From positions 62,001-126,000 of the forward strand of contig CAIZZF010000026.1 of NCBI GenBank assembly GCA_903937385.1: a stretch of 64,000 nucleotides of DNA, given 5' to 3'. Under the pieces are notes generated by a model. It searched no databases. It had not been told where the DNA came from and was given only the letters and a program-made list of their open reading frames with translations. Positions 22,107-60,546 of the stretch are shown here, piece after piece. The position numbers and the translations under genes were made by a program. Positions within the stretch are counted from its first letter, which is position 1, and every line of letters begins with the position of its first letter. The stretch comes from an uncultured Holophagaceae bacterium. Lineage in GTDB: Bacteria > Acidobacteriota > Holophagae > Holophagales > Holophagaceae.

Positions 22107-22119
22107 GCCGTTCTTCGTT

Positions 22120-22169
22120 ATCCCCTTCGTCCCTGTTTTAACAAACGAAGGAACAGGGCTGAAGGGGAT
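22120..22169. repeat. Inverted repeat with 18-bp arms downstream of the epimerase gene
   Basis: ATCCCCTTCGTCCCTGTT (22120-22137) pairs with AACAGGGCTGAAGGGGAT (22152-22169) at 16 of 18 positions around a 14-nt loop. It begins 14 nt after the epimerase stop and could act as a terminator or processing site. There is no T tract. Its layout resembles the other post-stop palindromes in the window. Confidence 0.75.
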
Positions 22170-22331
22170 GACTGAAAAGGCCGGTGGGGGGCCCTGTTTC
22201 ACACCTGTTTCTCTCGCCGCCCCTCCGCCTTCCCGTCCTTTCTCCGCGAGAGTTGTTTTCTTTTCATTCAGCCCTGTCAGGTCCTGTAATCACCTACCGA
22301 AGTCGCGCCACATGAGAGGACACATAGCCCC

Positions 22332-22796
22332 ATGAAAGAGGAACTCTTCGTCTCTGTCCAGGACCTCCCCGTGCCCCGGTCAGAGGTGTTCCCCTTCTTC
22401 GCGGACCCCGCGAACCTGGAGGCCCTGACGCCACCCTGGCTGGGCTTCGAGGTTCTGACGCCGCGCCCCCTGCCCCAGGGCGAGGGCGCCCTCTTCGACT
22501 ACCGGGTCCGGGTGCGCGGGCTGCCCCTCCGCTGGCGCACCCTCATCGAGACCTTCGTGCCCGGCGAGTGCTTCGTGGACCGCCAGCTCAAGGGCCCCTA
22601 TGCCCTCTGGCACCACACCCACACCTTCGAGGACCTCCCTGGCGGCGGCACCCGCATGACCGACACCGTCCGCTACCGGGTCGGGTGGGGCTTCCTAGGC
22701 GCCCTCGTCACCACCCTCTGGGTCCGCCACGACATCCAGCGCATCTTCGACTACCGCAGACAAGTCCTCGCCGAGAAGTTCCCCGGGAAGACCTAA
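22332..22796 (+). CDS. SRPBCC-family ligand-binding protein
   Basis: The 154-residue product fits the START/Bet v1-like SRPBCC fold. It begins with a strand followed by the VPRSEVFPFFADPANLEALTP helix and loop, continues through alternating strands (FDYRVRVRGLPLRWRTLIETF), then GPYALWHHTHTFEDL, and ends in a long C-terminal helix (RHDIQRIFDYRRQVLAEKF). Such proteins bind hydrophobic ligands such as lipids or quinones. It follows the TIGR01777 epimerase, with which related proteins are often fused. The CACGAAGA palindrome begins 13 nt after its stop. Confidence 0.87.
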   Translation: MKEELFVSVQDLPVPRSEVFPFFADPANLEALTPPWLGFEVLTPRPLPQGEGALFDYRVRVRGLPLRWRTLIETFVPGECFVDRQLKGPYALWHHTHTFEDLPGGGTRMTDTVRYRVGWGFLGALVTTLWVRHDIQRIFDYRRQVLAEKFPGKT

Positions 22797-22809
22797 AGAG
22801 AAGACCTCA

Positions 22810-22876
22810 CCACGAAGACGATAAGACCACGAAGGAAGACCGACTGCTTTTCTTCGTGGTCTTTCCGTCTTCGTGG
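22810..22876. repeat. CACGAAGA-type palindromic element, copy 1
   Basis: The left arm (22810-22834) and right arm (22852-22876) are reverse complements at 23 of 25 positions around a 17-nt loop. Each arm holds two copies of the word ACCACGAAG about 16 nt apart. The right flank continues as TTAAC. It begins 13 nt after the SRPBCC stop codon and lies between two convergent genes. Confidence 0.9.
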
Positions 22877-22909
22877 TTAACGCTTTTTCGCCGAGCTGCC
22901 CCCCTGCAC

Positions 22910-25900
22910 TCACCCCCGCTGGAGGCCTCCGAAGCGGGCCAGGATGCGCTTGTCGCCGCCGTGGTCGAAGCGGATGGTGTAGGTCAGGCCGTCGCCGCTG
23001 CCGGAGGCGGCCAGCACGGTGCCACTGCCGAAGCGCGCGCTCTGCACCCGGGTGCCCGGAGGAAAAGCAGCAGGATCTTGACTCTCGGCAGGCTCGGAGA
23101 GCCTGCCGTCGGCCTGGCCGCCGGCTGGAACCGACGCCTCCTTAACGCGGTCGAAGAAGCCGCGGATGCGCTGCAGCTCCGTGGCCACGGAGGCGCCCCC
23201 GGCGCCGCGGGTGAAGGAGGCCCCGGGCCGGATGCCCTCGCCCGCCTGGTAGAGCTCCGTGCCCCAGCGGATCGGCGCCGTGAGCACCGCGGCCGGAAGC
23301 TCCCGCAGGAAGCGGCTGGGCATGGACATCATCTCGGTGCCCATCACGCGGCGGCGGCGCGCGGCGCTGAGCGTGAGGCGCCGCTGGGCGCGGGTGATCG
23401 CCACGTAGAAGAGGCGGCGTTCCTCTTCCAGGCCGTCCGGCGTCTCGCGAGCGTTGCGGTTGGGGAAGACGTCCTCTTCCATGCCGATGACGAAGACGTG
23501 GGGGAACTCCAGCCCCTTGGCGCAGTGGATGGTCATGAGGCTGAGGTGGGAGGCCTCCTCCAGGTTGTCCGTGTCCGAGGCGAGGGTGATGCGGTCCAGG
23601 AACTCCGAGAGGCGCAGGCCCAGGGCCTCGGACTCGGCGGCGGCGCTGAGGAACTCCTCCAGGTTGCGGATCCGGCCTTCGGACTCCAGGGTGGCCTCGT
23701 CCTCCAGGCTCTGGAGGTAGCCGCTCTCCTGAAGCACCCACTTCACCACGCCCGCCAGACCCATGGCGTCGCGCTCCTTCTCGGCCCGGGCGAACAGGTC
23801 CAGGAACTTGATCAGCTCCCGCTGGGCGCGGCCTTTCAGGTCGCCGGAGCGCAGCAGCCGCTCCAGCCCCGCCAGGGGCGTGCCGCCCTCGGGGATGGCG
23901 GCCTCGATCTTGCCCAGGGTGGTGGGGCCGACGCCCCGGGTGGGCGCGTTCACGCAGCGGCGGAAGCTGACCAGGTCGAAGGGATTCGAGATGAGCCGCA
24001 GGTAGGAGATGAGGTCCTTCACCTCCTGCCGCTCGTAGAACTTCACGCCGCCCACCAGGCGGTAGGGCATGTTCTGGGCGCGCAGCGCCTCTTCCATCTG
24101 CCGGGACTGCCAGTTGGCGCGATAGAGCACCGCCACCTTGCCCTCGGGATCCCGGTAGCGCAGCTCCTGGATGCGCTGGGCCACCCACTCGGCCTCCTGG
24201 CGACCCTCGTCCAGCAGCTTGAACACGAGGGCCTCGCCATCGCCCAGCTCCGTGATCAGGGCACCCTTCCCGGCCACGCGCTGGGAGTTGTTGGCGATGA
24301 CTTCCGAGGCCGCGTCGAGGATCTTCTTCGTGGACCGGTAGTTCTGCAGCAGCTCGATGCGCACCGCCTCCGGGAAGTCCTGCTGGAAGTCGAGGATGTT
24401 GCGGATGTCAGCACCCCGCCACCCGTAGATCGAGTTGTGGGTGACCAGCCCTTCGGCCACGAAGTTGTGCACACCCTCCACGTCCAGGTCGTACACCTGG
24501 GTCGGCGCGGCCACCCGCTCCACGCGCTCCACCAGATCCAGGCCGCCGTCGGCATCGAAGATCGCCATGCCGGGCTTGACGTTGCAGGCAGGCAGGAAGG
24601 GCAGGCTGCAGGTGTCCTTCCCGGGACTGGCGCCGAGGCGCGCCTGGAGCTGGATCTCCGCATCCAGGTGCTGTCGGATGCGGTCTGCGGCACGCCGGAC
24701 CTCGCCGTAGGAGACGGCGCAGGTCTCCATGCGCCAGCTGGCGGTCCCGGCCCTGGCTGGGCGCACCGAGTGGCCCAGCCCTTCGAGGAGGCTGCGGGCT
24801 TCGGGATCCTGACCCACCATGGAGATCCGGTGCATGGGCCGCCGGCCCCGGCGGTCCCCACAGAGGGTGACGGTCACCACGCGGCGGAACCCCGTGGCGG
24901 CCTGGGCCCGGTGGTGCGGGAAGGCTGCGGCCATGCCCAGGTCGCCCAGCAGGCGCTCGGCCCCGGCCCCGGAATCCACGGCCGCAAACACCTTCCGGAT
25001 GGCTTCCTCATCGTGCACGAGACCCCGGGTGGAGGCCCCTTTGCGCGGCACGAAGGGCAGCGTCGGCAGCTGGTATTGGAGCGACCAGACCGCTTCCTGG
25101 AGCCGCGCCTCCTGCTCGCTCGCATGGGTGGACAGCACCCACAACTCGTCGGCGTGCTCCTGCCGGGCGCGCTGCAGGAAGCCCACCACCGGCTTCACCT
25201 GTCCTCGCGTGTGGGTCTGGCTGGTGCCCACTCGCCACCCGATGCCCTGCTTGCGCATGAGGTAGACAAAGTGGAGCTGGGGCGAGACGCCCAGGCGGTA
25301 GCCGGCGAAGTGGATGTGCTCGGGGGTGCTGGTGAGCACTCGTCCGGACTGGGTGGTGATGCGGATGGCCAGACCCTTCCCAGGCCGGGCCGCGGCCTTG
25401 ACCACCGGGGCCGGCCGGAAGTCACCGCTGCCGTGGGCCGCCAGGACGAGGTCCCCGGCCACCACCTGCTCGATGGGGCGGTCCCCACCATCGGCCATGC
25501 GGACCCGGGTGCCCGGGATGAGGCACTGGTCCTCGTCGCCCACCACGCACAGGTTGTGGTGCCGCCGCGCGAGGTGCTGCACCAGGAGGTACTGCGCGCG
25601 GTTGGTGTCCTGGTACTCGTCCACCAGGATGAACTTGAAGCGCTCGCCGTAGGTGGCCTGCAGCACGGGGTCGCGGAAGAGTCGCTCGGTCCAGAGCAGC
25701 AGGTCGTCGAAGTCGCAGGCACGGTGGTTCTTCAGGCCCTTCTGGTAGAGCTCGTAGGCGTCCAGCACCTTGCGGGTCCAGGGATCCAGGGCCTCCTCGC
25801 GGGCCTCGTCGGGCAGCAGGCAGCGGTTCTTGAAGTCGCTGATCACCTCCAGCACTTTCTTGGGGTGGAACTGCTTCTCCGGCAGCTTCAGCTCCGCCAG

Positions 25901-30423: not shown

Positions 30424-30601
30424 TCTTCCGGGATTTCGGGGAGTGCCAACTCTCCGCGGATTCATCCAGCTCGTGGGGGAAGAGCAACCCCTCTCGCAGA
30501 GGGCGCGGAGAGGGCCGAGGTTCGCAGAGCACAGCGGGTAACCCGCAACCCTCAGCGCCCCTCCGCTCCCCTCATCCATTCTCTGCGAGAGTGGTTGCTT
30601 T
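30424..30601. repeat. CGCAGAG-type palindromic element with shared leader
   Basis: The block starts with TCTTCCGGGATTTCGGG (30424-30440), which repeats the sequence at 10801-10818. The palindrome proper runs from AGAGCAACCCCTCTCGCAGA (30481-30500) to its reverse complement TCTGCGAGAGTGGTTGCTT (30582-30600). Degenerate copies of GCAGAG/GCGGAG words lie inside, along with a small hairpin GCGGGTAACCCGC near 30534-30546. It occupies the gap between the convergent aldose epimerase and miaB genes; no gene is seen in this 261-nt gap. Confidence 0.8.
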
Positions 30602-30672
30602 CCCCTGAGCGTGCGGAGAACACCCAGGGTGTGGGGTTGGCGTGTCTTGGTGGCGTCCTTTGTTGTTCCCGT

Positions 30673-46799: not shown

Positions 46800-47660
46800 T
46801 CACAGCCCCGGCGGGAACCCCACGGCCAGGCGGACCCGGGCGATGCCACCGTCGACGCTGCCATCGGCGCGGCGGATGAGGATGGGTGGCTCGGCCTCGG
46901 GGCACTGGGCCCGGGCCTCGAAGTCCTCGGGCAGGTCCTGGCGGCGAGCGGCCGCAAAGACATCCAGGCCATAGGGCTCGCCCTCCTTGAAGACGATCTC
47001 CCGGCGGTGCAGGCAGAGCAGCCCCGCGCCAGCCAGGGCGGCCAGGGCACGGTCCCGCTGGTCGTTGGGGAAGACGCAGGCGAAGAGGCCTCCGGGGGCC
47101 AGCAGGCGGGCCGCGGCCAAGGCGTAGTCGGCGATGCTGCCCCGCACCTCGAGCCGGGCGGGCACAGACTGGGGGTGCGAAGCGGCCAGGCGCTGCCCCT
47201 CGGGCCAGTAGGGGGGTGTACCCAGCACCAGGTCGAAGGGCGCCTGGTCCGCGAAGAGCTCTGGGTCCCGCAGGTCCCCGAGCCGCGGGAAGACCCGGTG
47301 CCCCTGGCCGTTGTAGCGGATGCTCTTTTCGGCCAGCCGCAGGCTCTCCACCTGGGCCTCCACGGTGTGCACCTCGGCCCCGGGGCAGCGCCAAGCCGCC
47401 ATGAGGGCCACGCTGCCGATGCCCGAGCCCAGGTCCGCAATGCGGTCAGGTCGGGGACACCAGCTGGTGCCATACCAGGCCGTGACCAGGTCATCCGTGC
47501 TGAAGCGGTTGCCCTTGAGCAGCTGGAAGATGCGCCAGCGGCCGCAGAGACCGTCCAGGGACTCCCCCGGCTCCAGTTCCACCCCGCCGGGAGGCACAGG
47601 CCCCGGGCGCACCCAGCCCTTGTAGCTGGCGGCATCTCCGGAGGTCGTGGGGCGCGGCAT
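46800..47660 (-). CDS. TrmN6-like class I methyltransferase
   Basis: The 286-residue product has the SAM-binding motif RIADLGSGIGSVALM near residue 90, the acidic VEAQVESLRLAEKSI strand-end, and the catalytic GTPPYWPEG (NPPY-type) motif near residue 154. This is the pattern of N6-adenine methyltransferases of the TrmN6/YfiC family, which modify A37 of tRNA-Val. The substrate remains an inference. ATG 47660 is used; the upstream GAAGG is too close to be a normal ribosome site and the frame is open to 47786, so the start is uncertain. Confidence 0.82.
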   Translation of the reverse strand: MPRPTTSGDAASYKGWVRPGPVPPGGVELEPGESLDGLCGRWRIFQLLKGNRFSTDDLVTAWYGTSWCPRPDRIADLGSGIGSVALMAAWRCPGAEVHTVEAQVESLRLAEKSIRYNGQGHRVFPRLGDLRDPELFADQAPFDLVLGTPPYWPEGQRLAASHPQSVPARLEVRGSIADYALAAARLLAPGGLFACVFPNDQRDRALAALAGAGLLCLHRREIVFKEGEPYGLDVFAAARRQDLPEDFEARAQCPEAEPPILIRRADGSVDGGIARVRLAVGFPPGL

Positions 47661-48068
47661 CCTTCGAGTGTCGGCGGAACCGGGGGTCCATGGCAAAGCC
47701 CCCAGGGGAAAAGCAAACCACAGATGACGCGGATGGGCGCAGCAGAGCGTCCCCTTTGCCACGGCAAAATGGAAAAGATTTAACACCGATGAATACCGAT
47801 AAATACTGATTAATAGCTGAAAAATAAATGCTTAATAATGTATGTTGTTATTTTTATCATGTCTTTATCGGTGTTCATCGGTGGTTAATTTTCCCTTTGC
47901 TTGAATTGAGCCTCAGCCGGTGCCTCCAGCGATGGGTCGCCGCTCACCCTGCGCAGATCTGCGGCATCGGCGGTTCTGCTCTTGAGCTTGCATCGAACCC
48001 AACGCCATGCCGTTATCTTCCGAAGATCCACGCTGGCATCTGGGGCTTCCCTGCGCGACACTCGAATC
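47661..48068. other. Intergenic region between divergent methyltransferase and rel genes
   Basis: No supported gene is seen. The region contains the ACCGATGAA-type palindrome at 47780-47888 with an AT-rich loop. The remainder (47889-48068) is ordinary GC-rich sequence that should hold the rel promoter; no clear Shine-Dalgarno site precedes ATG 48069. Confidence 0.6.
47780..47888. repeat. ACCGATGAA-type palindromic element, copy 1
   Basis: The left arm begins TTAACACCGATGAATACCGA (47780-47799) and continues with another degenerate word. The right arm is ATCGGTGTTCATCGGTGGTT (47867-47886), ending in AA. The arms are near reverse complements around an AT-rich loop of about 65 nt. The same word family recurs at 60202-60308. 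Confidence 0.85.
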
Positions 48069-50294
48069 ATGGTCGCTGCTGGCAGAGCCCCGGAGCCCGT
48101 CCTCCGCGAGGGGGAAGGTTCAGCGTGCGGCGATGAATCCTGCCTGACCCTGGAAGGGGCCTTCGATCGGGTCAAGGCCTCCTTCCTGAAGCACCACCCC
48201 AACGGGGATGTGGCCCTGCTGAACCGGGCCTACCTGGTGGGCCGGAACATGCACGCCACCCAGCTCCGCAAGAGCGGTGAGCCCTACTTCTTCCACCCCC
48301 TGGCCGTGGCCCAGAGCCTCGCGGACTGGCGGCTGGACGCGGCCAGCGTGGCCTGCGGCATGCTGCACGACGTGGTCGAGGACACCCTCATGACCCAAGT
48401 GCAGGTGAAGGCCCAGTTCGGCGAGGAGATCTCCGAGATCGTGGACGGCCTCACCAAGATGAGCAAGCTGGCCTTCACGGACCGGCACCTGCTCAACGCC
48501 GAGAACGTCCGCAAGCTGCTGGTGGCCATGGGCAAGGACGTGCGGGTGCTGCTGGTGAAGCTGGCGGACCGGCTGCACAACATGAAGACCCTGGGCGTCA
48601 TGGAGGAGGAGAAGCGCCGCCGCATCTCCCGGGAGACCCTGGAGCTCTACGCGCCCCTGGCCAACCGGCTGGGCATGGGCACCGTGCGGCTGGAGCTCGA
48701 GGACCTCGCCTTCCGCCAGCTGGAGCCGGAGCAGCACGCCGAGCTGTGCAGCGCGGTGGAGCGCAAGCGGGCCAAGCTCTCGGCCACCATCCAGGAGATC
48801 CATGGCTCCCTGCAGGCCATCCTCCGCCAGCAGGGGATCCAGGCCCAGGTCTACGGGCGCATCAAGCACCTCTACGGCATCTACCGGAAGATGGGCACCC
48901 AGGCCAAGGGCTTCGAGGACATCCACGACTGGCTGGCCTACCGCATCATCTGTCCGGACCGCGCCAGCTGCTACACAGCCCTGGGCCTGGTGCACGGCCT
49001 CTACAAGCCCGTGCCCGGCAAGTTCAAGGACTACATCAGCCTGCCCAAGGAGAACGGCTACCAGAGCATCCACACCACGGTGCTGATGACCTCTGGGGAC
49101 ATCTTCGAGGTCCAGATCCGCACCGAGGAGATGCACCTGCACTCGGAAGCGGGTATCGCCAGCCACTGGACCTACAAGGACGGGCGCATCGCCAACCGCG
49201 CCGAGATCAACCAGGTCTCCTTCCTGCGCCGCATGGTGGAGCTGCACCAGGACTCCCAGGACAGCCGGGAGCTGGTGGCCAACCTCCGGGGCGAGCTGAC
49301 CTTCAACCGCATCCAGGTCTTCACGCCCAAGGGCGACCTCCGCAGCCTCGTGGAGGGCAGCACGCCCGTGGACTTCGCCTACGCCATCCACACCGAGGTG
49401 GGCCACCGCTGCGTGGGCGCCAAGGTGAACGGCCGCATCGTGCCCCTGAAGCACACCCTGCTGAACGGTGACCGCGTGGAGATCCTCACCCGGCCCAACC
49501 ACAAGCCCAGCCGCGACTGGCTCGGCTTCGTGAAGTCCGCCGGCGCCAAGGGCCGCATCCAGGCCTTCATCCGCGAGGAGAAGCGCGCCCACGCCATCCA
49601 CCTGGGCCGCGAGCGGCTGGAGCGCGAGTCCCGCGCCATGGGCGTGCGCCTGGATGACGCCGACTCGAAGGCGAAGCTCGACGCGCGCCTGGTCGAGATG
49701 AAGCTCCCGGGCTGGGATGCAGCCTACGCGGCCCTGGGCTTTGGCCGGATGACGGTGCACAAGCTCATCGAGCCCCTGATCCCCGAGCTGGAGCGGGCCA
49801 AGCCCAAGGAGAACACCTCCAACCTCCTGGATTCCGTGGTGGTGGGCGACACCACGGGGATCCTCTACACCCTGGCAGCCTGCTGCAAGCCCATCTGGGG
49901 CGACGAGGTCATCGGCTACATCACCCGCACCCGGGGCACGGCCATCCACCGCGCGGACTGCCCCCAGCTCAACACCGCCACCCTGCTGCCCGAGCGCCGG
50001 GTCAGCGTGGCCTGGGGCAAGCACGGGACCGAGCTCTACGACACCGAGCTGACGCTCACCTCCGAGGACCGGCCGGGCATGGTGGCCGCCATCTCCGAGA
50101 GCATTCAGCGCGTCGGCATCAACGTGCAGCGCTTCCACGGCTCGGCCACCGAGGAAGGCGCCGGACTCTTCCACATCGCCCTCCGGGTGCGCGACCGCGC
50201 CCACCTGGTGGAGCTCATGGCGAGCCTCCGCCGCACCCGCGGCGTCTACACCGTCGAGCGGGTGAAGGGCTCGGTGTTCGGGAAGGTCAAGTGA
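48069..50294 (+). CDS. rel: Bifunctional (p)ppGpp synthetase/hydrolase Rel
   Basis: The 741-residue product has all parts of long Rel/SpoT proteins. The HD hydrolase domain includes the HDVVEDT motif (about residue 100). The synthetase domain has YGRIKHLYGIYRKM, the FKDYISLPKENGYQSIHTTV segment and FEVQIRTEEMH. TGS follows (RIQVFTPKGDLRSL), then a helical region with the CCKPIWGDEVIGY zinc-finger-like motif, and a C-terminal ACT domain. Intact HD and synthetase motifs suggest both activities. It controls the stringent response. ATG 48069 is the best start near the domain, but no clear ribosome site is visible. A NUDIX gene follows after 16 nt. Confidence 0.94.
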   Translation: MVAAGRAPEPVLREGEGSACGDESCLTLEGAFDRVKASFLKHHPNGDVALLNRAYLVGRNMHATQLRKSGEPYFFHPLAVAQSLADWRLDAASVACGMLHDVVEDTLMTQVQVKAQFGEEISEIVDGLTKMSKLAFTDRHLLNAENVRKLLVAMGKDVRVLLVKLADRLHNMKTLGVMEEEKRRRISRETLELYAPLANRLGMGTVRLELEDLAFRQLEPEQHAELCSAVERKRAKLSATIQEIHGSLQAILRQQGIQAQVYGRIKHLYGIYRKMGTQAKGFEDIHDWLAYRIICPDRASCYTALGLVHGLYKPVPGKFKDYISLPKENGYQSIHTTVLMTSGDIFEVQIRTEEMHLHSEAGIASHWTYKDGRIANRAEINQVSFLRRMVELHQDSQDSRELVANLRGELTFNRIQVFTPKGDLRSLVEGSTPVDFAYAIHTEVGHRCVGAKVNGRIVPLKHTLLNGDRVEILTRPNHKPSRDWLGFVKSAGAKGRIQAFIREEKRAHAIHLGRERLERESRAMGVRLDDADSKAKLDARLVEMKLPGWDAAYAALGFGRMTVHKLIEPLIPELERAKPKENTSNLLDSVVVGDTTGILYTLAACCKPIWGDEVIGYITRTRGTAIHRADCPQLNTATLLPERRVSVAWGKHGTELYDTELTLTSEDRPGMVAAISESIQRVGINVQRFHGSATEEGAGLFHIALRVRDRAHLVELMASLRRTRGVYTVERVKGSVFGKVK

Positions 50295-50310
50295 GCCCGG
50301 GACGTGCGGC

Positions 50311-50934
50311 ATGACCGCCTGGCGCCCCCCCACCGAGGCCCCGCCTGTACCCTGGGCCCAGGTCGCGGAGAGCCTCCGCCTCCCCCAGCTCGGCCCGAAT
50401 CCGCACAAGCTCAGCCCCCGCATGGCCGAGGATCCGCGCCGCGCCGCCGTGGGCGTCATCCTCTGGGGCGACCCCGCCGGGGCCCGCAAGATTGTCCTGG
50501 TCCAGCGCGGTTTCGGCGCGCCCCAGCACGCCGGTGAGCTCGCCTTCCCCGGCGGTATGGTCGAGCCCCGGGACCGGGACCTGCCCGCCACCGCCCGTCG
50601 CGAGGTGGCCGAAGAACTCGGCGTCATCGGCGGCCTCTGGGAACTGGGCTGCTTCCCTGACGGCGTGGCCAAGGCCCGGGTGCGCTTCACGCCCGTCTTC
50701 TTCCGCTGGGAGGAGCCCGAGCCGCGCTTCCACCTGGACCACGAGCTGGAGCAGGTGCTCCTGCTGCCCTTGGCGCCCCTCCTGGCGGCCCCCTGGACTG
50801 TGGAGCGCCTGGAGCGCTACGGCTTCACCCTGGACGTCCCCCGCCTCGAGTTGCCCCAGGCCCCCCTCTGGGGCGCCACCGCCTTCATCCTCAAGTCCTG
50901 GCTGGACGTCCTGCGGGACTGCGGCGAAGCCTGA
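50311..50934 (+). CDS. NUDIX hydrolase, CoA-pyrophosphatase-like (NudL type)
   Basis: The 207-residue product carries a Nudix box in GGMVEPRDRDLPATARREVAEELGV (split here as GGMVEP and TARREVAEELG, about 93-115). The preceding HAGELAFPGG segment is typical of CoA and acyl-CoA diphosphatases of the YeaB/NudL group. It would split CoA into phosphopantetheine and 3',5'-ADP. It starts 16 nt after rel and is probably co-transcribed. A CACGAAGA palindrome begins 9 nt after its stop. Confidence 0.9.
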   Translation: MTAWRPPTEAPPVPWAQVAESLRLPQLGPNPHKLSPRMAEDPRRAAVGVILWGDPAGARKIVLVQRGFGAPQHAGELAFPGGMVEPRDRDLPATARREVAEELGVIGGLWELGCFPDGVAKARVRFTPVFFRWEEPEPRFHLDHELEQVLLLPLAPLLAAPWTVERLERYGFTLDVPRLELPQAPLWGATAFILKSWLDVLRDCGEA

Positions 50935-50943
50935 AAAGAGCTC

Positions 50944-51019
50944 AACCACGAAGACGGAAAGACCACGAAGAAAAGCGAAGGCCTTGACTTCCTTCGTGGT
51001 CTTGGTGGTCTTCGTGGTT
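50944..51019. repeat. CACGAAGA-type palindromic element, copy 2
   Basis: The left arm (50944-50970) holds AACCACGAAGACGG and a second ACCACGAAG word. The right arm (50992-51019) is its near reverse complement with one extra base. The right arm plus its TTAA tail is identical over 30 nt to 59338-59367. It begins 9 nt after the NUDIX stop and ends shortly before the stop of the convergent small metal-binding protein. Confidence 0.9.
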
Positions 51020-51037
51020 AACCGTTTTCCCGAAAAG

Positions 51038-51274
51038 CTACTTCGCGCCCTTGACGCTGCCGTCCTTCTCGAGGTACTTATCGGGATCCTTCTGCAGGGT
51101 GTTCGCGCAGTGCTTGCTGCAGACACGGTATTCCTGGCCACGGACCACGACGATCTGGTCCTTGGGCGTGGTCTTCATGCGGCAGATGGGGTCGATGGTG
51201 TTGGTGGCGGGCTTGGCCTTGTCCGCCGCGGGCGCGGCGAGGACGGCGAGGCAGAGCAGGGCGGCGTGAAGCAT
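51038..51274 (-). CDS. Small exported YHS-like metal-binding protein, copy A
   Basis: The 78-residue product has a signal peptide (about 1-17) and a short mature domain with Cys31 in DPICRM, then VVVRGQEYRVCSKHC with Cys52 and Cys56, and DPDKYLEKDG. The spacing of the Cys residues and the DP-K--EKDG end resemble YHS/TRASH-type metal-binding domains. Together with its paralogue at 51353 and the efflux genes it is likely a periplasmic metal chaperone or buffer. GGAGG lies just before ATG 51274. It is the last gene of the metal-efflux group. Confidence 0.8.
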   Translation of the reverse strand: MLHAALLCLAVLAAPAADKAKPATNTIDPICRMKTTPKDQIVVVRGQEYRVCSKHCANTLQKDPDKYLEKDGSVKGAK

Positions 51275-51352
51275 GGGACCTCCAGAGAGGACCCAGTGTA
51301 GCGGATCGCCCCGCGACAATACGTCGCAGGGCGGCGGAGCGGGCCGCTCGAC

Positions 51353-51586
51353 CTACTTCTTGGCGTTTTTGGGGGTGCCGTCCTTCTGAAGGAACTTGTC
51401 GGGATCCTTGAGCATCTGCGTGTCGCAGCCGCCGCAGCAGATGCGGTACTCGTGGCCCCGGACCACGACGGTCTTGGACTTGGGATTGACCTTGCCGCCG
51501 AGGACGGGGCAGATCGTGTTGTTGGCCGGGATGGGTTTGTCCGCTGGCGCGGCCAAGATCAGCAAAGAAAGCAGAGGTGAGAGCAT
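51353..51586 (-). CDS. Small exported YHS-like metal-binding protein, copy B
   Basis: The 77-residue product is a paralogue of the protein at 51038. It has a signal peptide (about 1-15), Cys26 in NTICPVLGGKV, and RGHEYRICCGGCDTQ with Cys50, Cys51 and Cys54, followed by KDPDKFLQKDG. The extra adjacent Cys and different spacing suggest a different metal preference from copy A. It lies 29 nt after the cusA-like stop on the same strand, so the two small genes are probably expressed with the efflux pump. Confidence 0.82.
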   Translation of the reverse strand: MLSPLLSLLILAAPADKPIPANNTICPVLGGKVNPKSKTVVVRGHEYRICCGGCDTQMLKDPDKFLQKDGTPKNAKK

Positions 51587-51615
51587 GTTGACTCCTTGTT
51601 TTGTCAGTAGTTATC

Positions 51616-54600
51616 TCAGGCTTCGACAGAAGCCTGAGCCGGTACGAGCGAGCGTCGCTTCCACAAATAATAAATCGCCGGATAGACCAGCAGCTCCAGC
51701 AGGAAGCTGGTGGTGAGGCCGCCCACCATGGGCGCGGCGATGCGCTTCATGAGGTCCGCGCCGGAGCCCGTGCTCCACATGATGGGCAGCAGGCCCATGA
51801 AGGCCGCGGCCACGGTCATGGCCTTGGGCCGCACCCGCTTCACGGCGCCGTGGATGATGGCCTCGATGAGGTCGCCGTCCGTGTTCAGCCGGCCTTTGCG
51901 CTGGGCCTCGTCGTGACTGAGGTCCAGGAACAGCAGCATGAACACGCCCGTCTCGGCGTCCAGGCCCATGAGGGCGATGAGGCCCACCCAGACGGCGATG
52001 CTCATGTTGTAGTCCAGGCCCCAGAGCAGCCAGAAGGCACCGATGGCGCTGAAGGGCACCGCCAGCATCACGATGCCCGCCTTGAAGGCCGACCGGGTGT
52101 TGGCGTAGAGCAGGCCGAAGATCAGCACCAGCGTGATGGGCAGGATGAGCTTCAGCCGCTCCTTCACGCGGATCATGTTCTCGTATTGGCCGCTCCAGGT
52201 GAGGCTGTAGCCGGGGGGCAGCTTCAGCTCCGCCACGGCGGCCTTGGCGCGATGGACATAGGTGCCCACATCCACCAGGGAGGTGTCGAAGTCCAGCAGC
52301 ACGTAGCCGTTCATGAGGCCGTTCTCGTCGCGGATCATGGCGGGGCCCGTGGTCCACTTCAGGTCCGCCAGCTCCTCCATGGCGACGGTGCCGCCTCCCG
52401 GCAGGGACACCAGCACCCGACCCAGGGCCGCCGTGGATTCCCGGAAGTCCCGCTGGTAGCGCACGTTCACGGGATACCGCGCCCGGCCGTCGAAGACCGT
52501 GGCCTGGGTGTCCCCACCGATGGCCGTCATCACCATCATGTTGGCCTGTTCCACGCTGAGCCCGTAGCGGGCCAGGCGGTCGCGCCTGAGCACGAAGTCA
52601 AGAAAGTAGCCTTCGTTGGTGCGCTCCGCGAAGGCGCTGCGGGTGCCCGGCACCTTGGCCAGGGCCGCTTCGGCCTGCACGGCAAGGCGTTCGATCACCG
52701 CCAGGTCGGGCCCGTTGACCTTGAGCCCCACCGGCGTGCGGATGCCCGTGCTGAGCATGTCCAGCCGGGCCTTGATGGGCATGGTCCAGGCGTTGGGGAT
52801 GGCGGGCAGGCGCACCGCGTGGTCCAGGTCCCGGACGATGTCCTCCTGGGTGACCCGGTCCCGCCAGAAGGGGCGCAGCAGGCCCTTCACCCAGCCCGGA
52901 GCCCAGCTCGAGAACCAGCGGGGCTTCTCGCGCCACTGGTCCTCGGGCTTGAGCACGATGACCGTCTCCATCATGGAGAAGGGCGCGGGATCCGTAGCGG
53001 TGTCGGCGCGGCCGGCCTTGCCATAGACCCGCGCCACCTCGGGCACCGTGCGGATGAGGCGGTCCTGCACCTGGAGGATCCGCTGGGCCTCGGTCTGGCT
53101 GAGGCCCGGCAGGGTCGAGGGCATGTAGAGCAGCGTGCCTTCATTGAGGGGCGGCATGAACTCGCTGCCCAGCTTCAGGAACACCGGCACCGTCGCCAGC
53201 ACCAGGAGGAAAGCCACGGCGATCGTGGCCTTCGCGTGCTTCAGGACGAAGCGGCAGGGGCGCTCGTAGATCCGGTGGAGGAACACCGAGATGGGGTGCT
53301 TCTCCTCCGGATAGTAGGTGCCCACCAGGGCGTGGGAGCCCAACTTCGCCAGCCACCGGGGCTTGAAGGTGAAGGGGTCCATCCGCGCGAACATCATGCG
53401 CAGGGCGGGATCCAGCGTGATGGCCAGCAGCGCCGCGATGGCCATGGCCAGGTTCTTGGAGTAGGCCAGGGGCTTGAAGAGCCGACCTTCCTGGTCCACC
53501 AGGGTGAACACGGGCATGAAGGCCACGGCCACCACCAGCAGGCTGAAGAACACCGACGGGCCCACCTCCAGCAGGGCGTCGAGGCGCACCTTGTGGAAGT
53601 CGCCGGGACGACCGGAGCTGTTCCATTCTTCGAGTTTCTTGTAGGCGTTCTCCACCTCCACGATGGCGCCATCCACCAGCACGCCGATGGAGATGGCGAT
53701 GCCAGCCAGGCTCATGAGGTTCGCGTTGAGGCCCGCCGCCTGCATGGGGATGAAGGCCAGGGCCACGCTCACGGGGATGGTGACGATGGGCACGATGGCC
53801 GAAGGGATGTGCCACAGGAAGACCAGGATCACCAGGGAGACGATGAGCATCTCCTCGATGAGCTTCCAGGACACGGTGCTGATGGCCTTCTGGATCAGCT
53901 CGGAGCGGTCGTAGGTGGTGACCACCTCGACGCCCTCGGGCAGGGAGGCCTTCAGGTCCTTCAGCTTCTCCTTCACGGCGGTGATGACGTTCAGGGCGTT
54001 CTCGCCCTGGCGCATGATGACGATGCCACCCACAGCGTCGCCCTGCCCGTCCAGGTCCGCCAGGCCCCGGCGGATATCTGGCCCCAGGGTCACGGTGGCC
54101 ACGTCCCCCAGGCGGATGGGCGTGCCGTTCTCAGACTTCAGCACGGCCTCCTCGAGGTCCTTCAGTGTCTTCACGTAGCCCCGGCCCCGCACCATGTACT
54201 CGCGACCCGACACTTCGATGAGGCGGCCCCCGGCCTCGTTGTTGGCGGCCTTCACCGAGGCGATCACCGCCTCCAGGGGCAGCCGGTAGGCGGACAGCTT
54301 GTTGGGGTTCACCGCCACCTGGAACTGCCGAGCCTGGCCACCCACGGTGGCCACCTCGGCCACCCCGGGCACGCTCTGCAGGGCGTAGCGCAGGAACCAG
54401 TCCTGGTGGCTGCGCAGCTCGTCGCTGCGGTGCTTGCCGGCGCGGTCCACCAGGGCGTACTGGAAGATCCAGCCCACGGAGGTGGCGTCCGGCCCAAGCT
54501 CGGTCTTCACCCCGGGCGGCAGGTTCGCGGTGATCTTGCTGAGGTACTCCAGCACGCGGCTGCGGGCCCAGTAGATGTCCGTGCCATCCTCGAAGATCAC

Positions 54601-54879
54601 GTAGACGTAGGAGTAGCCGAAGTCCGAGAGGCCGCGCACGGCCTTGACCTTGGGCGCGCCCAGCAGGCTGGTGATGATCGGATAGGTGACCTGGTCCTCC
54701 ACCAGGTCGGGGCTGCGGTCCCACTTGGAGTAGACGATCACCTGGGTGTCGCTGAGGTCCGGCAGCGCGTCCAGGGGGATGCGCTGCATGGACCAGAAAG
54801 AGAGGCCCAGCAGCAGCAGGCTGGCGGCCACCACCAGGAAGCGGTTCTCGGCGGAGAAGCGGATGATCTTCCGGATCAT
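51616..54879 (-). CDS. cusA: CusA/CzcA-type heavy-metal RND efflux pump
   Basis: The 1087-residue product is an inner-membrane RND transporter of the heavy-metal (HME) class. It has twelve membrane segments (one near the N-terminus, groups around 340-500 and 900-1060) and two large periplasmic loops. The HME signature GVLVDGAIVEVENAYKKLE lies in helix 4 (about residue 401). These proteins export Cu/Ag or Zn/Co/Cd with a membrane-fusion and outer-membrane partner. The motif context favours the monovalent (CusA) group, but the metal is not certain. Its ATG overlaps the end of cusB (ATGA), which shows tight coupling. Confidence 0.93.
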   Translation of the reverse strand: MIRKIIRFSAENRFLVVAASLLLLGLSFWSMQRIPLDALPDLSDTQVIVYSKWDRSPDLVEDQVTYPIITSLLGAPKVKAVRGLSDFGYSYVYVIFEDGTDIYWARSRVLEYLSKITANLPPGVKTELGPDATSVGWIFQYALVDRAGKHRSDELRSHQDWFLRYALQSVPGVAEVATVGGQARQFQVAVNPNKLSAYRLPLEAVIASVKAANNEAGGRLIEVSGREYMVRGRGYVKTLKDLEEAVLKSENGTPIRLGDVATVTLGPDIRRGLADLDGQGDAVGGIVIMRQGENALNVITAVKEKLKDLKASLPEGVEVVTTYDRSELIQKAISTVSWKLIEEMLIVSLVILVFLWHIPSAIVPIVTIPVSVALAFIPMQAAGLNANLMSLAGIAISIGVLVDGAIVEVENAYKKLEEWNSSGRPGDFHKVRLDALLEVGPSVFFSLLVVAVAFMPVFTLVDQEGRLFKPLAYSKNLAMAIAALLAITLDPALRMMFARMDPFTFKPRWLAKLGSHALVGTYYPEEKHPISVFLHRIYERPCRFVLKHAKATIAVAFLLVLATVPVFLKLGSEFMPPLNEGTLLYMPSTLPGLSQTEAQRILQVQDRLIRTVPEVARVYGKAGRADTATDPAPFSMMETVIVLKPEDQWREKPRWFSSWAPGWVKGLLRPFWRDRVTQEDIVRDLDHAVRLPAIPNAWTMPIKARLDMLSTGIRTPVGLKVNGPDLAVIERLAVQAEAALAKVPGTRSAFAERTNEGYFLDFVLRRDRLARYGLSVEQANMMVMTAIGGDTQATVFDGRARYPVNVRYQRDFRESTAALGRVLVSLPGGGTVAMEELADLKWTTGPAMIRDENGLMNGYVLLDFDTSLVDVGTYVHRAKAAVAELKLPPGYSLTWSGQYENMIRVKERLKLILPITLVLIFGLLYANTRSAFKAGIVMLAVPFSAIGAFWLLWGLDYNMSIAVWVGLIALMGLDAETGVFMLLFLDLSHDEAQRKGRLNTDGDLIEAIIHGAVKRVRPKAMTVAAAFMGLLPIMWSTGSGADLMKRIAAPMVGGLTTSFLLELLVYPAIYYLWKRRSLVPAQASVEA

Positions 54880-56183
54880 GGCTTGGCCTCGTGCTTGGAC
54901 TCGGCCTTGGCGCCCAGGGAGGCCAGGGCGGCCCGCAGGCGGGACTCGGAGTCCACCAGGAAGGCGGCGCCGGTGACGACTTCCTCACCGGCCTCAAGGC
55001 CCTTGCGGACCTCCACCAGATCACCAGTCGCGGGGCCGGTCTCCACCTCGCGGGGCTCGAACTTGCCATCGCCCAGGGCCACGAAGACCACCTTGCGGGT
55101 GCCGGAGTCCAGCACCGCGTCCAGGGGCACCAGCAGCCCCTTGCGGGTGCCGGTCTTGAGCACCGCGTCGCCGAACATCTCCGGCTTCAGCTCACCCCGG
55201 GGGTTGGCCACCTCGATGCGCACCTTGGCGGTGCGCGTCTTGGGGTCCAGCACCGCGTCCACGAAGGCCACGCGGCCCGGGAAGGCCCGACCGTCGCCGC
55301 CGTTGATCCGAAGCTCCGCAGCCCCGCCCACCTTCACCCGGGCCAGCTCGGACTCGGTGACCTCCGCCTGGGCCCAGAGGTGGCCCAGGTCCGTGATCTC
55401 CAGCGGGGCCTCACCCGGTGAGACCCTGGAGCCTTCCACCACGGTCTTGGCCGTGATGATGCCGCTGAGGGGCGAGCGCAGGGTGAGCGTCTTCTGGACC
55501 TCGCCGGTCTTCTCCAGCTGCTCCAGGGCCTCCGCGGGCACGTCCCACAGCTGCAGGCGGCGGCGGGCTGAGTCCAGCAGGTCGCCGCCGGACTGTTTGA
55601 GGGCGCCGCCGCTCAGGGCCTTCTGGGTGCGCAGGGCCAGCAGGTACTCCCGCTGGGCGCTGACGAACTCGGGGCTGTAGAGGCTGAAGAGGGGCTGCCC
55701 CTTGGCCACCGCCTTGCCCACGAAGTCCGCGTAGAGCTTCTCCACAAAGCCCTCCACCTTGACGTTGATCTTCCGGATGCGGGTCTCATCCGGGGCCAGT
55801 CGGACCACCGCGCGGATCTCGCCGCCGGTGGCGCCCAGAACCACCTTGGCGGTGCGCAGGCCGATGAGCTGCTGGCGGGCGGGATCGATGGTGATGGCGG
55901 CCAGGCCGTCCACGCTGGAGGCGCCGCCCTGGATCTCCTCGATGGGCACCAGGTCCATGGCGCAGATGGGGCAGGTGCCGAAGTGATCCTGAAGAATCTG
56001 CAGGTGCATGGGGCACTGGTACATCTGCTTCTTCGCCGCCGGGGCCGGGGCAGCGGGGCTCGGACGGCGCACCAGCAGGGTGCCGCCCACGCCGACCGCG
56101 AGGCCGAGGGCCAGCAGGGCCAGGGAGCGGACGGAGGAGCCGGCGCGGGTTGGCTGTTCGGGTGAGGTCTGTTCGTTGCTCAT
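54876..56183 (-). CDS. cusB: CusB-type membrane-fusion protein with heavy-metal-binding domain
   Basis: The 435-residue product has an N-terminal membrane anchor (about 18-38), a small heavy-metal-binding domain (about 53-80: YQCPMHLQILQ, then GTCPICAMDL), and the lipoyl, hairpin and beta-barrel domains of an RND adaptor (about 90-420). The metal-binding domain is of the YxCPMHP-CPxCGM type but with Leu for Pro after CPMH and Ala for Gly before Met. The adaptor links CusA to the outer-membrane channel. ATG 56183 has AGGAG upstream. It lies 8 nt after the cusC stop. Confidence 0.92.
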   Translation of the reverse strand: MSNEQTSPEQPTRAGSSVRSLALLALGLAVGVGGTLLVRRPSPAAPAPAAKKQMYQCPMHLQILQDHFGTCPICAMDLVPIEEIQGGASSVDGLAAITIDPARQQLIGLRTAKVVLGATGGEIRAVVRLAPDETRIRKINVKVEGFVEKLYADFVGKAVAKGQPLFSLYSPEFVSAQREYLLALRTQKALSGGALKQSGGDLLDSARRRLQLWDVPAEALEQLEKTGEVQKTLTLRSPLSGIITAKTVVEGSRVSPGEAPLEITDLGHLWAQAEVTESELARVKVGGAAELRINGGDGRAFPGRVAFVDAVLDPKTRTAKVRIEVANPRGELKPEMFGDAVLKTGTRKGLLVPLDAVLDSGTRKVVFVALGDGKFEPREVETGPATGDLVEVRKGLEAGEEVVTGAAFLVDSESRLRAALASLGAKAESKHEAKP

Positions 56184-56191
56184 GGGATCTC

Positions 56192-57571
56192 CTACATCTT
56201 CATCGAGGCGGGGCCGCTGTCCTGGGCCTTGCCCGGGGCCTTGGCAGTGGAACGAACGGCAGGGGCGGCGCCACCCGCGGCGATGCTGGCGGAGCCCAGA
56301 GACCCGCCGGCCACGGGGACCGTGGGGCCGAGGGCGCACTCCGCCAGGGCGATGTACTGGGCCTGGAGCTGGGCCTGGGTCTGCAGGAAGGCGGCCTGGT
56401 CACCCACCCAGCCATTGAGTGCCTCCAGGGCGCCCAGGAAGGGGGCGCGGCCTGCCTCGTACTGGGCCAGGGCGGCCCGGAAGCTGGCCTCGCTCTGCAC
56501 CAGCAGGCCTTCGCGATAGAGGTCGCGGATCTTGTGCAGGGCCTGGATCTGGAGGGTGCGCTCCTCGGTGCGCTGCCGCAGCAGGCTGCGCACGGACTCC
56601 ACCTCGGAGCCCTGGCCCTGGCGGTGGTGCTCATGCTCGGCCACGGCGCGCTGCTGCTTGGAGCGGCCATAGATGGGCAGGGAGATGCTCACGCCCACCT
56701 GCCACATGGGATCGAAGGCGCCCCGGGGCATGATGCCCGCGGTGACGGCGAAGTCGGGCCGCCGGTCCAGCTTCGCCAGCTCCAGCTGCTTCTCGGTCTG
56801 CTTCACGGTAGCGCGGGCCGAGGCCAGCTCGGGACTGCGGGCCTCGACCACCTCGGGGGCCAGGAGGGCGGGCTCCGGCAAGTCCGCAAGGGTGGCGGTG
56901 GTGGGGATGGGGTCCGCAGGCTCGTGCTGCCGCAGGCGGTTGAGGCCGGCCACGGCGGACCGCTCCTCGGCCTCCAGGGACCAGACCGCCTGCTGCAGCC
57001 GCGTGCGCTCGAGCTGGGCGCGCAGCAGGTCGCCCTGGCTGCCCTGCCCCACCTCGTAGCGGGTGCGGGCCAGCTGCTCGGCCTGCTCCAGGAAGAGGGC
57101 CTGCTGCCCCTGCAGCTGCCGCTGCTCGCGGATCAGCAGCAGGGCCGCGTAGCCCCGGCGCACATCGGCCTCCAGGCCCAGCTGAACCCGGACGCGGGTG
57201 GCATCCGAGAAGTCCACGGCCAGGGCCGCCACGTCCTTGCGGAGGGCGCGCTTGCCGGGCCAGGGCAGCGGCTGGGTGAAGGCCACGCTGTAGAAGCTGG
57301 TCTCCATGCGGCCAATCTGCAGCTTCTGGAAGCCGTCGTTCTGCAGCCCCAGGGAGATCGACGGATCCGGCAGCACCCCCGCCTGGGGCACGCGCTCCTC
57401 GTCCATGCGCACGGCCGCGTCGGCCCGCCGCAGGTCCGGGTGCTCCGCCAGGGCCTCGCGGATGAGGCCGGACAATACCGGGTCGGGAGAGAAGGGATCG
57501 GGTTGGGGAACCTGGGCCAGGCCCGATGCGGTGAGCACCAGGGCCGGAACCAGACGCGAAAAGGCGCGCAT
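56192..57571 (-). CDS. cusC: CusC/TolC-type outer-membrane efflux channel
   Basis: The 459-residue product has a signal peptide (about 1-20) and two repeated outer-membrane efflux (OEP) halves, with long amphipathic helices (QLGLEADVRRGYAALL, then SLEAEERSAVAGLNRLRQHE and KQTEKQLELAKLDR) and the conserved barrel-like segments. It forms the exit duct of the CusCBA pump. ATG 57571 is preferred over 57577 because GGAG lies at proper spacing. The operon order here is Cys-rich protein, cusC, cusB, cusA, then the two YHS-like genes. Confidence 0.92.
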   Translation of the reverse strand: MRAFSRLVPALVLTASGLAQVPQPDPFSPDPVLSGLIREALAEHPDLRRADAAVRMDEERVPQAGVLPDPSISLGLQNDGFQKLQIGRMETSFYSVAFTQPLPWPGKRALRKDVAALAVDFSDATRVRVQLGLEADVRRGYAALLLIREQRQLQGQQALFLEQAEQLARTRYEVGQGSQGDLLRAQLERTRLQQAVWSLEAEERSAVAGLNRLRQHEPADPIPTTATLADLPEPALLAPEVVEARSPELASARATVKQTEKQLELAKLDRRPDFAVTAGIMPRGAFDPMWQVGVSISLPIYGRSKQQRAVAEHEHHRQGQGSEVESVRSLLRQRTEERTLQIQALHKIRDLYREGLLVQSEASFRAALAQYEAGRAPFLGALEALNGWVGDQAAFLQTQAQLQAQYIALAECALGPTVPVAGGSLGSASIAAGGAAPAVRSTAKAPGKAQDSGPASMKM

Positions 57572-57638
57572 GGGCATCTCCGGAACAAAGGGGTCAGGCC
57601 CGCCCGGACGGGCAGGCAGGGCTACGCCAGGGCGGCCC

Positions 57639-58025: not shown

Positions 58026-58147
58026 GGGAAACCTCCGAAGCTCCCATCATAGGGCCGGTTCCTGTGTGGCGACAGGCAATCCTTGACCCGGGTCACAGCG
58101 GCGCGGCGAGGAGGCGGGTCCAGCGTGGGGCAGCGTAGGATGGAGCC

Positions 58148-59209: not shown

Positions 59210-59221
59210 GGAAGAACTTTT

Positions 59222-59367
59222 TCACCACGAAGACAGAAGGATTCAGTTTGTCTCGCGTATCGGCGCAGCCGATGCCGAGAAGACCACGAAGGAAGAGAAG
59301 GCGTTCCAAACGCCTTCCGACTTTTCTTCGTGCTCTTCTTCGTGGTCTTGGTGGTCTTCGTGGTTAA
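59222..59367. repeat. CACGAAGA-type palindromic element, copy 3, with nested insert
   Basis: The left part starts with TTCACCACGAAGACAGAAGG, then is interrupted by the REP-like unit at 59246-59279, then resumes as AGACCACGAAGG. A perfect 8-bp hairpin (AAGGCGTT, CCA, AACGCCTT at 59298-59316) forms the tip. The right arm (59338-59367) equals copy 2 over 30 nt. The element starts 12 nt after the FAD-oxidase stop and lies before the nitrilase gene, filling most of the 186-nt gap. Confidence 0.88.
59246..59279 (+). repeat. 34-nt REP-like palindromic repeat, copy 2, nested in a CACGAAGA element
   Basis: This unit matches 42233-42266 (opposite strand) at 32 of 34 positions, with the core hairpin ATCGGC-GCA-GCCGAT. 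In copies 1 and 2 of the CACGAAGA element the left arm is continuous at this point, so the unit appears inserted into it. Confidence 0.82.
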
Positions 59368-59395
59368 GCCTTTCCCTTTCTCCTAATATCACCTC

Positions 59396-60223
59396 ATGTC
59401 CACCATCCTTCGCGTTGCTCTGGTCCAGCAGGACACGGTCTGGCAGGACCCGGGCGCGAACCTCGCCCGGGCGCAGGGGTTTGTGGAACAGGCTGCGCGG
59501 GCGGGAGCCCGGGTGGCGGTGTTTCCGGAGCTGTTCACGCTGGGCTTCACCATGGCGCCAGAACCTTTCGCGGAGGCCCTGCCTGGCCCCACCACGGATG
59601 CCCTGGGGGCGCTGTCCCGGGAGTTCGGGCTCTACCTGATCGGTTCGGCGGTGGAGACCCACGCGCCGCACCCACGCAACGCGGCCTTCGTCACGGGCCC
59701 GGACGGCGCCCTGATTGCCGTTTACCGCAAGCTGCATCCCTTCACCTACGGCGACGAGCACCAGCACTACACCGGCGGGGACGACTGCCCGCTGTTCGAG
59801 CTCGACGGCATCCCCTGCGGCCTGCAGATCTGCTACGACCTCCGCTTTCCCGAGCCCTTCCGCGCCCTGGCGGCGAAGGGCGCCGAGGTCATCTTCGTGC
59901 CCGCCAACTGGCCCGCCCGGCGCATCTCCGCCTGGTCCACCCTGCTGGCGGCCCGCGCCATCGAGAACCAGGTGGCCCTCTGCGGCGTCAATCGCGTGGG
60001 CCGCGACGGCGCCGGCCTGGACTACCCCGGGGCGTCCGCGCTCCACGACTGCTTCGGCGAAGTCATCGCCCAGGGCGATGCCACCGAGGGTCTGGTGGTC
60101 GGCGACCTCGACCTCACCCAGCTCCGCGCCTGGCGCCAGCGCTTCCCCGCCCTGCAGGACCGGCGGCCGGAGGTCTACGCGGCCCTGGAGCGCAAAGCTG
60201 GAACACCGATGAACACCGATTAA
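59396..60223 (+). CDS. Carbon-nitrogen hydrolase (nitrilase/omega-amidase family)
   Basis: The 275-residue product has the Glu-Lys-Cys triad of nitrilase-fold amidases: Glu in FPELFTLGF, Lys in YRKLHPFTYGDE, and nucleophile Cys in GLQICYDLRFPE. The similarity is to omega-amidases such as YafV/Nit2, which hydrolyse alpha-keto-glutaramate-type compounds. The last residues (about TPMNTD) and the stop are encoded by the left arm of the ACCGATGAA palindrome, so this C-terminus was probably altered by the element. No clear ribosome site precedes ATG 59396. Confidence 0.9.
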   Translation: MSTILRVALVQQDTVWQDPGANLARAQGFVEQAARAGARVAVFPELFTLGFTMAPEPFAEALPGPTTDALGALSREFGLYLIGSAVETHAPHPRNAAFVTGPDGALIAVYRKLHPFTYGDEHQHYTGGDDCPLFELDGIPCGLQICYDLRFPEPFRALAAKGAEVIFVPANWPARRISAWSTLLAARAIENQVALCGVNRVGRDGAGLDYPGASALHDCFGEVIAQGDATEGLVVGDLDLTQLRAWRQRFPALQDRRPEVYAALERKAGTPMNTD

Positions 60224-60308
60224 GAGCGGATGAAGACAGGGTCCTCGGGAACTTCAAAGTGGCTCATTTATCCTGCTTATATCGGTGTTACTCGGTGTGT
60301 ATCGGTGG
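60202..60308. repeat. ACCGATGAA-type palindromic element, copy 2, overlapping the nitrilase end
   Basis: The left arm AACACCGATGAACACCGATT (from 60202) lies inside the nitrilase frame and includes its TAA stop. The right arm carries ATCGGTGTTACTCGGTG and ATCGGTGG (60281-60308). The word family is the same as at 47780-47888. Confidence 0.85.
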
Positions 60309-60546
60309 CCAATCCCTTATTGCCGGGTCCCTGGCCCGGCGGACCAACGCCGCACCTAAATGCCCCATCCCCTTCATCCGCAGTTTCCCCGTCCAATTGC
60401 CAATTTTTGACCGGGAGGGAAGGCGCGCTGGGTATGTAAAAAATCTAGACTTCAACCGTTTGTACCTACCTGACGTCGCCATCGGCCGTACATTGCCCAC
60501 TGATGACCCCTAGGCATCACGCTGCGTTGAACTCTCGGGAGACCTA
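60224..60546. other. Intergenic region downstream of the nitrilase gene
   Basis: Up to 60308 this holds the loop and right arm of the palindromic element. From 60309 to 60546 no gene is convincing. The stretch near 60400-60470 is AT-richer and may contain the promoter of the small gene at 60547, but I could not fix a -35/-10 pair with normal spacing. Confidence 0.55.

Follow-up and report, generated by a model that had tools for sequence, protein, structure and literature searches.

Dispersed intergenic palindromes of CACGAAG words in a Holophagaceae genome and their relation to GxxExxY genes

Word palindromes in the window and across the genome

Three palindromes made of CACGAAG words lie in the window (the whole analysed stretch of 64,000 nucleotides from an uncultured Holophagaceae bacterium), and their sequences read as the original prediction had described them at 22810-22876, 50944-51019 and 59222-59367; no strand is assigned to these or to the other mapped palindromes of the window. 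Element 1, of the period-9 type, occupies 22809..22877 between convergent genes, 12 bases past a stop codon, and its arms (22809-22837 and 22849-22877) are 90% complementary. Element 2 (50944..51019) also lies between convergent genes, 9 bases past a stop codon. Element 3 (59222..59367) is located between co-directional genes, 12 bases past a stop codon, and has about 40 extra bases in its left arm; these bases break the arm at 59233-59280 and hold a small inner palindrome. The upstream ORFs end at 22796, 50934 and 59209, and the resulting gaps of 9-12 bases agree with the predicted start 9-13 nt past a stop codon. Elements 2 and 3 have exactly 30 bases in common in their right arms, as had also been claimed.

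The sequence CCACGAAG occurs 27 times in the window, compared with 2.07 expected and a maximum of 6 in 100 shuffles, some of the 27 matches being lone words outside the elements. RNA folding of elements 1, 2 and 3 (the last represented by 59272-59385 only) was better than that of all 200 shuffles in each case, with z-scores of -8.6, -5.0 and -3.7, respectively.

Palindromes of other words are present in the window as well. An outer palindrome of CACAGATG/CGCAGAT words (CAGATG-type; 47716..47985), situated between divergent genes, carries in its loop a CACCGATG palindrome (47775..47892), whose word family is the one found beside the only GxxExxY gene of the own genome. A second CACCGATG palindrome (60202..60309) overlaps with its left arm the 3' end of the ORF at 59396-60223. 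A further inverted repeat at 30477-30605 consists of CGCAGAG/CGCGGAG-like words, probably another word family, and a short palindrome of the GGGGATGAAGGG type at 22117-22172 resembles in style the words beside the gene in locus L236. A strict scan of the window for paired word arrays yielded 3 pairs, compared with 0 in two controls; it missed elements 1 and 3 and hence was not used for counting.

The genome-wide count proposed with the original prediction extends the family well beyond the three copies of the window. The sequence ACCACGAAGAC has 34+34 matches on the two strands of the own genome (G000), compared with 0+2 for the reversed control; these 68 matches group into 43 places, and both orientations are present at 21. 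One place (L019) was dropped by eye as coding, and four of the remaining 42 fell inside predicted genes. This leaves 38 intergenic sites, counting the three in the window, as a lower bound, since additional sites carry a mismatched word. At 34 of the 38 sites CACGAAG is present in at least two exact copies, and at the other four in one exact copy plus degenerate neighbours. The elements form two sub-types, with period 9 (ACCACGAAG) and period 8 (ACACGAAG). The outer ends (n=54, both sides pooled) loosely follow AAAARGATTC-ACCACGAAGA, and the two ends of period-8 copies differ slightly. The arms are preceded by A-rich and followed by T-rich sequence. Among 47 genus genomes, the own genome has the most CACGAAG-word copies.

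According to a simple purpose-built gene finder, the flanking genes are co-directional at 19 of the 38 sites, convergent at 18 and divergent at none, one site being at a contig edge; 33 sites have a stop codon within 48 bases. The lack of divergent gaps (0 of the 37 placed sites vs. 12 of 39 background gaps of at least 60 bases) is significant (Fisher p 0.0002). This pattern is not absolute, as shown by the palindrome of the other word family between divergent genes at 47716-47985. The CACCGATG family sites that could be placed (five co-directional, four convergent, two at an edge) are too few for a test.

Turnover and nesting at syntenic sites

Presence or absence at syntenic sites, also proposed earlier as a check, was analysed at the site of element 1 in relatives with flank identity of about 78-92%. 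The site harbors CACGAAG words in G000, CACCAAG words in G003, CGCCAAG words in G036 and CGAG/AGAG words in G004, and it is empty in, for example, G022, G030, G010 and G063. Since relatives are empty or otherwise worded at this site, the elements are not, as judged from the sequences, ordinary conserved terminators. In G023 the same site (L430) is occupied by a MITE-like insert, which has CCTGRTTATCGGCC as inverted ends and encloses a word element; relative to the empty site of G030, this insert shows an 8-base duplication (AAAGAGAT). A copy resembling it is also present in G000 (L491, G000:C26:170500-171500).

A second site lies between carA and carB and was fetched from 30 species. Classification by eye gave 15 empty alleles, five of the AGAG type, six of the AGAT type and four of the GAAG type that also contain a gene. 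On the carB tree these states require 15 changes, compared with 13.8 for shuffled labels; the changes are thus no fewer than by chance, and even sister species differ. By eye, the filled AGAG and GAAG alleles have a common flank that is absent from the empty allele, which suggests that the alleles may have been exchanged at the site, beyond fresh insertion alone. At this junction (L258-L287), the carA stop overlaps the carB start in the alleles without an element; in those with an element, the end of carA and the spacer before carB are different, which means that the element alters the end of a core gene.

Elements of different families are also nested in each other: the loops of two CACCGATG palindromes hold a CACGAAG palindrome (L490) and a CGCCAAG palindrome (L489), respectively, and one CACGAAG palindrome contains a palindrome of CGGTGAG words (L002). 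No target-site duplication was seen for the word elements, the flanks of filled and empty sites being too diverged for reading.

GxxExxY genes framed by the same words

The sequence ACCACGAAGACACGAAG, a double word of 17 bases, was found in at least 120 stretches. The 80 listed loci, with phyla taken from record titles, come from Cyanobacteria, Gamma-, Alpha- and other Proteobacteria, Planctomycetes, Chloroflexi, Acidobacteria, Bacteroidetes, Lentisphaerae, Nitrospirae and more. Among 93 occurrences in these loci, 48 had an inverted partner at most 300 bases away on the inner side vs. 7 on the outer side, so that only about half of the cross-phylum occurrences are recognisable palindromes by this 300-base test.

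Partner genes were searched for by clustering the ORFs that lie no more than 1.2 kb from the words at the 80 listed loci, GxxExxY having been suspected beforehand. Three clusters comprised at least three loci: GxxExxY (three loci) and two very common large families, which from their sequences we take to be an ABC ATPase (four loci) and a dihydrolipoamide-dehydrogenase-like protein (three loci). No transposase-like family, the DDE type included, was noticed among these recurrent neighbours (at least three of 80 loci, 1.2 kb). GxxExxY (PF13366/TIGR04256) is a widespread, named but functionally blank family of PD-(D/E)XK nuclease-like proteins. The assignment of four scanned proteins is clear (129-156 bits for TIGR04256 with a cut-off of 35; 132-153 bits for PF13366 with a cut-off of 22). 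The putative active-site residues D63 and K75 are invariant in 154 of 154 domains, as is E23, and E73 is present in 150. An AF2 model built from three sequences reached pLDDT 68 and pTM 0.64 (single-sequence model, pLDDT 35); its weak similarity to BglII, BstYI, EcoRV, the archaeal Holliday-junction resolvase Hjc and XisH (Z 4.2-5.6) would at most indicate a common fold. Foldseek with this model returned no match at E 0.001 or better, and the one sequence match to solved structures, T7 endonuclease I (E 2.1), was rejected as non-significant.

PF13366 is present in 40 of 47 genus genomes, with up to 10 copies per genome, and in 43 of 50 genomes picked for the 17-base word vs. 86 of 247 genomes of the phylum sample. 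In the genus the framing words vary from gene to gene, and one genome can contain several GxxExxY genes, each with its own words. To describe the framing, we compiled 154 loci, which are not a random sample: 40 from the genus (20 top-scoring, and 20 hand-chosen from five genomes), 24 top-scoring ones from the phylum, and 90 from genomes with the 17-base word (50 of 55 genomes picked among the 80 listed loci). Three loci with less than 150 bases on one side were dropped, leaving 151. The inverted match between the two flanks exceeded the 99th percentile of 564 random placements within the same loci at 132 of them (37/40, 20/24, 26/29 and 49/58 by subset) and the maximum at 110; 135 loci were better than all 100 block shuffles. 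When considered separately, 35 of the 40 genus loci had a match above every one of 261 random placements. Randomly paired flanks of different loci had a higher 99th percentile than random placements (22 vs. 16.9), because the loci have words in common. The words C[A/G]C-NRA(G/T/A) were found 471 times upstream and 538 times downstream in the expected orientation, compared with 171 and 198 times in the opposite one. GxxExxY genes are thus associated with the words; the 19 of 151 loci below the 99th percentile of the control speak against a nuclease that moves the elements.

The window's own word family is also linked to this gene: the four relatives with a gene between carA and carB carry a GxxExxY gene framed by it, and in three of these species the arms of the gene-bearing element have 15-18 exact bases in common with each element of the window (maximum of 12 in 276 random pieces). 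In several species GxxExxY genes occupy one genomic place, before what we take, from the protein starts, to be carB or pyrG.

The words covary with the protein. A domain-only tree was built for 95 of the 114 non-genus loci, after removal of 19 (one duplicate, loci lacking a word repeat, and loci whose domain was broken or short). On this tree the 3-letter word class changes 24 times, compared with 47.9 times after shuffling. For nearest neighbours in another phylum or proteobacterial class (assigned from record titles), the 3-letter class is the same in 66 of 95 cases (shuffled mean 26.5, maximum 46) and the 4-letter class in 42 of 95 (shuffled mean 11.9, maximum 25). Agreement is modest for the GAAG class alone, several GAAG genes having AGAG neighbours.

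In the own genome, the single PF13366 match (G000:C8:225028) adjoins a CACCGATG palindrome, which lies on one side only; this resident gene is therefore unframed, an observation against the nuclease reading. The word beside it, CACCGATGNNCAC, has 45+39 matches (0 for the reversed control) at 42 places, 18 of them with both orientations, and some arms consist of seven to nine tandem words. In L492 and L493, CACCGATGAA words are repeated in seven or more tandem copies in one arm only. A search of the long CACCGATG elements of G000 for a decayed GxxExxY gene (20 stretches, L002 and the window) scored only the known gene. No CACGAAG-worded GxxExxY gene was found in the own genome despite its many word copies, which would speak against the nuclease reading; carB, the place of such a gene in four relatives, was likewise not found in its assembly. 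In the 42 species with the carAB site seen, word copies were weakly more numerous in the presence of a gene at that site (median 27, n=4) than in its absence (median 10.5, n=38; one-sided p 0.03). Against the nuclease reading, G019 has 35 words yet an empty carAB site.

Outside cellular genomes, ACCACGAAGACACGAAG was found in 24 stretches of a viral collection. In the same collection, GxxExxY sequence patterns matched one locus, a second pattern search found none, and scans with single GxxExxY proteins gave no match; TBLASTN against plasmids identified GxxExxY in 8 of 72,556 records. With so few matches in these viral and plasmid collections, a phage or plasmid origin was rejected. In L507 (Bacteroides finegoldii, NZ_OY725952.1, labelled plasmid), the GxxExxY gene is framed by CACAGAG-type words and adjoins radA.

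A possible two-part mobile system

We consider it fairly probable that gene-free palindromes and GxxExxY genes framed by the same words form a two-part system, in which the nuclease would spread the palindromes by cutting and repair. The autonomous form would be a short GxxExxY gene (PD-(D/E)XK fold) with inverted arrays of a short word on its two sides, and the common non-autonomous form would consist of the two arms alone, folding into a hairpin; the three palindromes of the window would belong to the latter. Every gene lineage would have its own word, CACGAAG in the case of the window elements. The nuclease may read tandem words, as a duplex or an extruded hairpin, and cut there, and repair from another copy could then fill an intergenic site behind a stop codon with the same element or another one, similarly to the presumed spread of REPINs by RAYT transposases, albeit with a different enzyme chemistry. 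Copies would persist mainly behind stop codons, where a hairpin may be harmless or act as a two-way terminator. Mobility itself is well supported. We infer that the nuclease moves the elements, and that it does so by binding and cutting the words, with repair copying the element; framing by linked words could also reflect shared descent rather than recognition. Among the roles offered in the original prediction (terminators, RNA-stability elements or mobile units), the 38 sites, the turnover, the nesting and the gene-bearing relatives favor mobile units, with a terminator-like side effect being possible; the link to GxxExxY genes, the central finding here, was beyond the reach of that prediction.

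It is unlikely that the palindromes are miniature elements moved by an unseen transposase of the REP/RAYT or DDE type, with GxxExxY as a passenger or a frequent insertion target. Such movement could account for the insert of G023 at the element 1 site, with its 8-base duplication and inner word element, and Y1 transposases do occur in 5 of the 47 genus genomes; they are absent from the other 42, and PF01797 (Y1) has 0 matches in the own genome, whose assembly is 97.8% complete. The recurrent neighbours in the 80 listed loci contain no transposase-like family, and passenger status would leave unexplained why the word class tracks the GxxExxY tree across phyla. The Y1 matches include seven in G020 and five in G068. 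A RAYT/Y1 partner was rejected for the own genome on the basis of the PF01797 result.

Ordinary two-way intrinsic terminators, which arise and change locally and whose words are similar due to convergence on a good hairpin, would explain the strong hairpins, the A-rich and T-rich flanks, the proximity of most sites (33 of 38) to a stop codon and the lack of divergent gaps. We regard this explanation as improbable: close species are filled or empty, and with different words, at the same sites; an identical 17-base string is found in many phyla; one protein family has its genes framed by words of this kind; and the elements are nested. A simple terminator scan of 50500-60500 was uninformative (7 vs. 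4.2 expected). We give very little credence to GxxExxY acting as a resident nuclease in regulation or defence, for which the words would be sites of binding or processing and the palindromes targets and not offspring, since the carAB turnover without tree signal, the nesting and the several own-word genes per genome fit a mobile system better and PADLOC matches are weak (E 0.003-0.006), although the presence of the genes at one genomic place in several species and their rarity in the viral and plasmid collections searched would agree with it. A defence system was rejected as a candidate, the PADLOC library giving those weak matches only.

The two-part mobile system was compared with known ones. 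REP/REPIN sequences, as described in PMC3733652, are dispersed extragenic palindromes that in many cases follow a gene; they frame a small nuclease gene, that of the RAYT (TnpA-REP) transposase, and their repeat type matches the gene lineage. Here too, dispersed extragenic palindromes are numerous, the partner gene is framed by repeats and the repeat type follows the gene lineage, though the partner is GxxExxY, a PD-(D/E)XK protein, and not a Y1/HUH transposase as in RAYT. No Y1 (HUH) transposase gene was found in the own genome, and the consensus of the 54 repeat ends carries no GTAG or CGTC tetranucleotide. Unlike the REP sequences of that description, with 20-40 bases, most elements have about 60-160 bases, and their arms are word arrays with a period of 8-10 bases. 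TIRtrons/TIRYT, as presented in the same source, are genes for tyrosine transposases flanked by long terminal inverted repeats. As at our loci, inverted repeats that in part belong to repeat families enclose a small nuclease gene; the enzyme superfamily is a different one, and the repeats here obey a common word grammar.

MITEs of DDE insertion sequences are also short gene-free inverted-repeat elements with rarer gene-bearing relatives, and terminal inverted repeats are present in both; unlike MITEs, the word elements have arms of tandem words, and one site can hold different families in different species; no transposase was noticed among their recurrent neighbours, and no target-site duplication was seen for them. 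Homing endonuclease genes are small nuclease genes at fixed genomic places with patchy presence among close species, as are the GxxExxY genes; in contrast to them, dispersed gene-free palindromes of the same words occur here, and no intron or intein was seen. Rfam gave 0 matches at the gathering score for 47600-60400 and 22600-23100, which cover all three elements, and literature searches by sequence, name or topic showed no paper that connects dispersed palindromes with GxxExxY or with these words; two papers contain the name GxxExxY, each in a single mention. The earlier statement that the palindromes cannot be assigned to a named class thus holds within Rfam and the literature searched.

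We read the arrangement as REPIN/RAYT-like, a PD-(D/E)XK protein apparently standing in for the usual enzyme and word arrays for the usual repeat. Two defining features of REP/RAYT were looked for and not found, and no other named class considered fits. More tentatively, and with some doubt, we propose that GxxExxY may found a class of mobile DNA chemically distinct from the DDE, HUH, serine and tyrosine systems, in which each word lineage would have a single small PD-(D/E)XK nuclease that spreads its palindromes over many bacterial phyla by cutting and repair-copying, and one word family could take the place of another at a site. If the nuclease moves the palindromes, this class would have its own enzyme chemistry and a spread comparable to that of REPINs. 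A large named family would gain a testable role, and common unnamed intergenic palindromes would gain a partner gene. The grammar of the words, which covaries with the protein, provides a ready recognition code for testing, and the rapid turnover at sites like carA-carB is a natural experiment in which selfish DNA would be reshaping operons and gene ends. In a Methylococcales bin (L145, 4313-4976), a GxxExxY gene lies between two near-identical complete CACGAAG palindromes, in an arrangement resembling a composite element.
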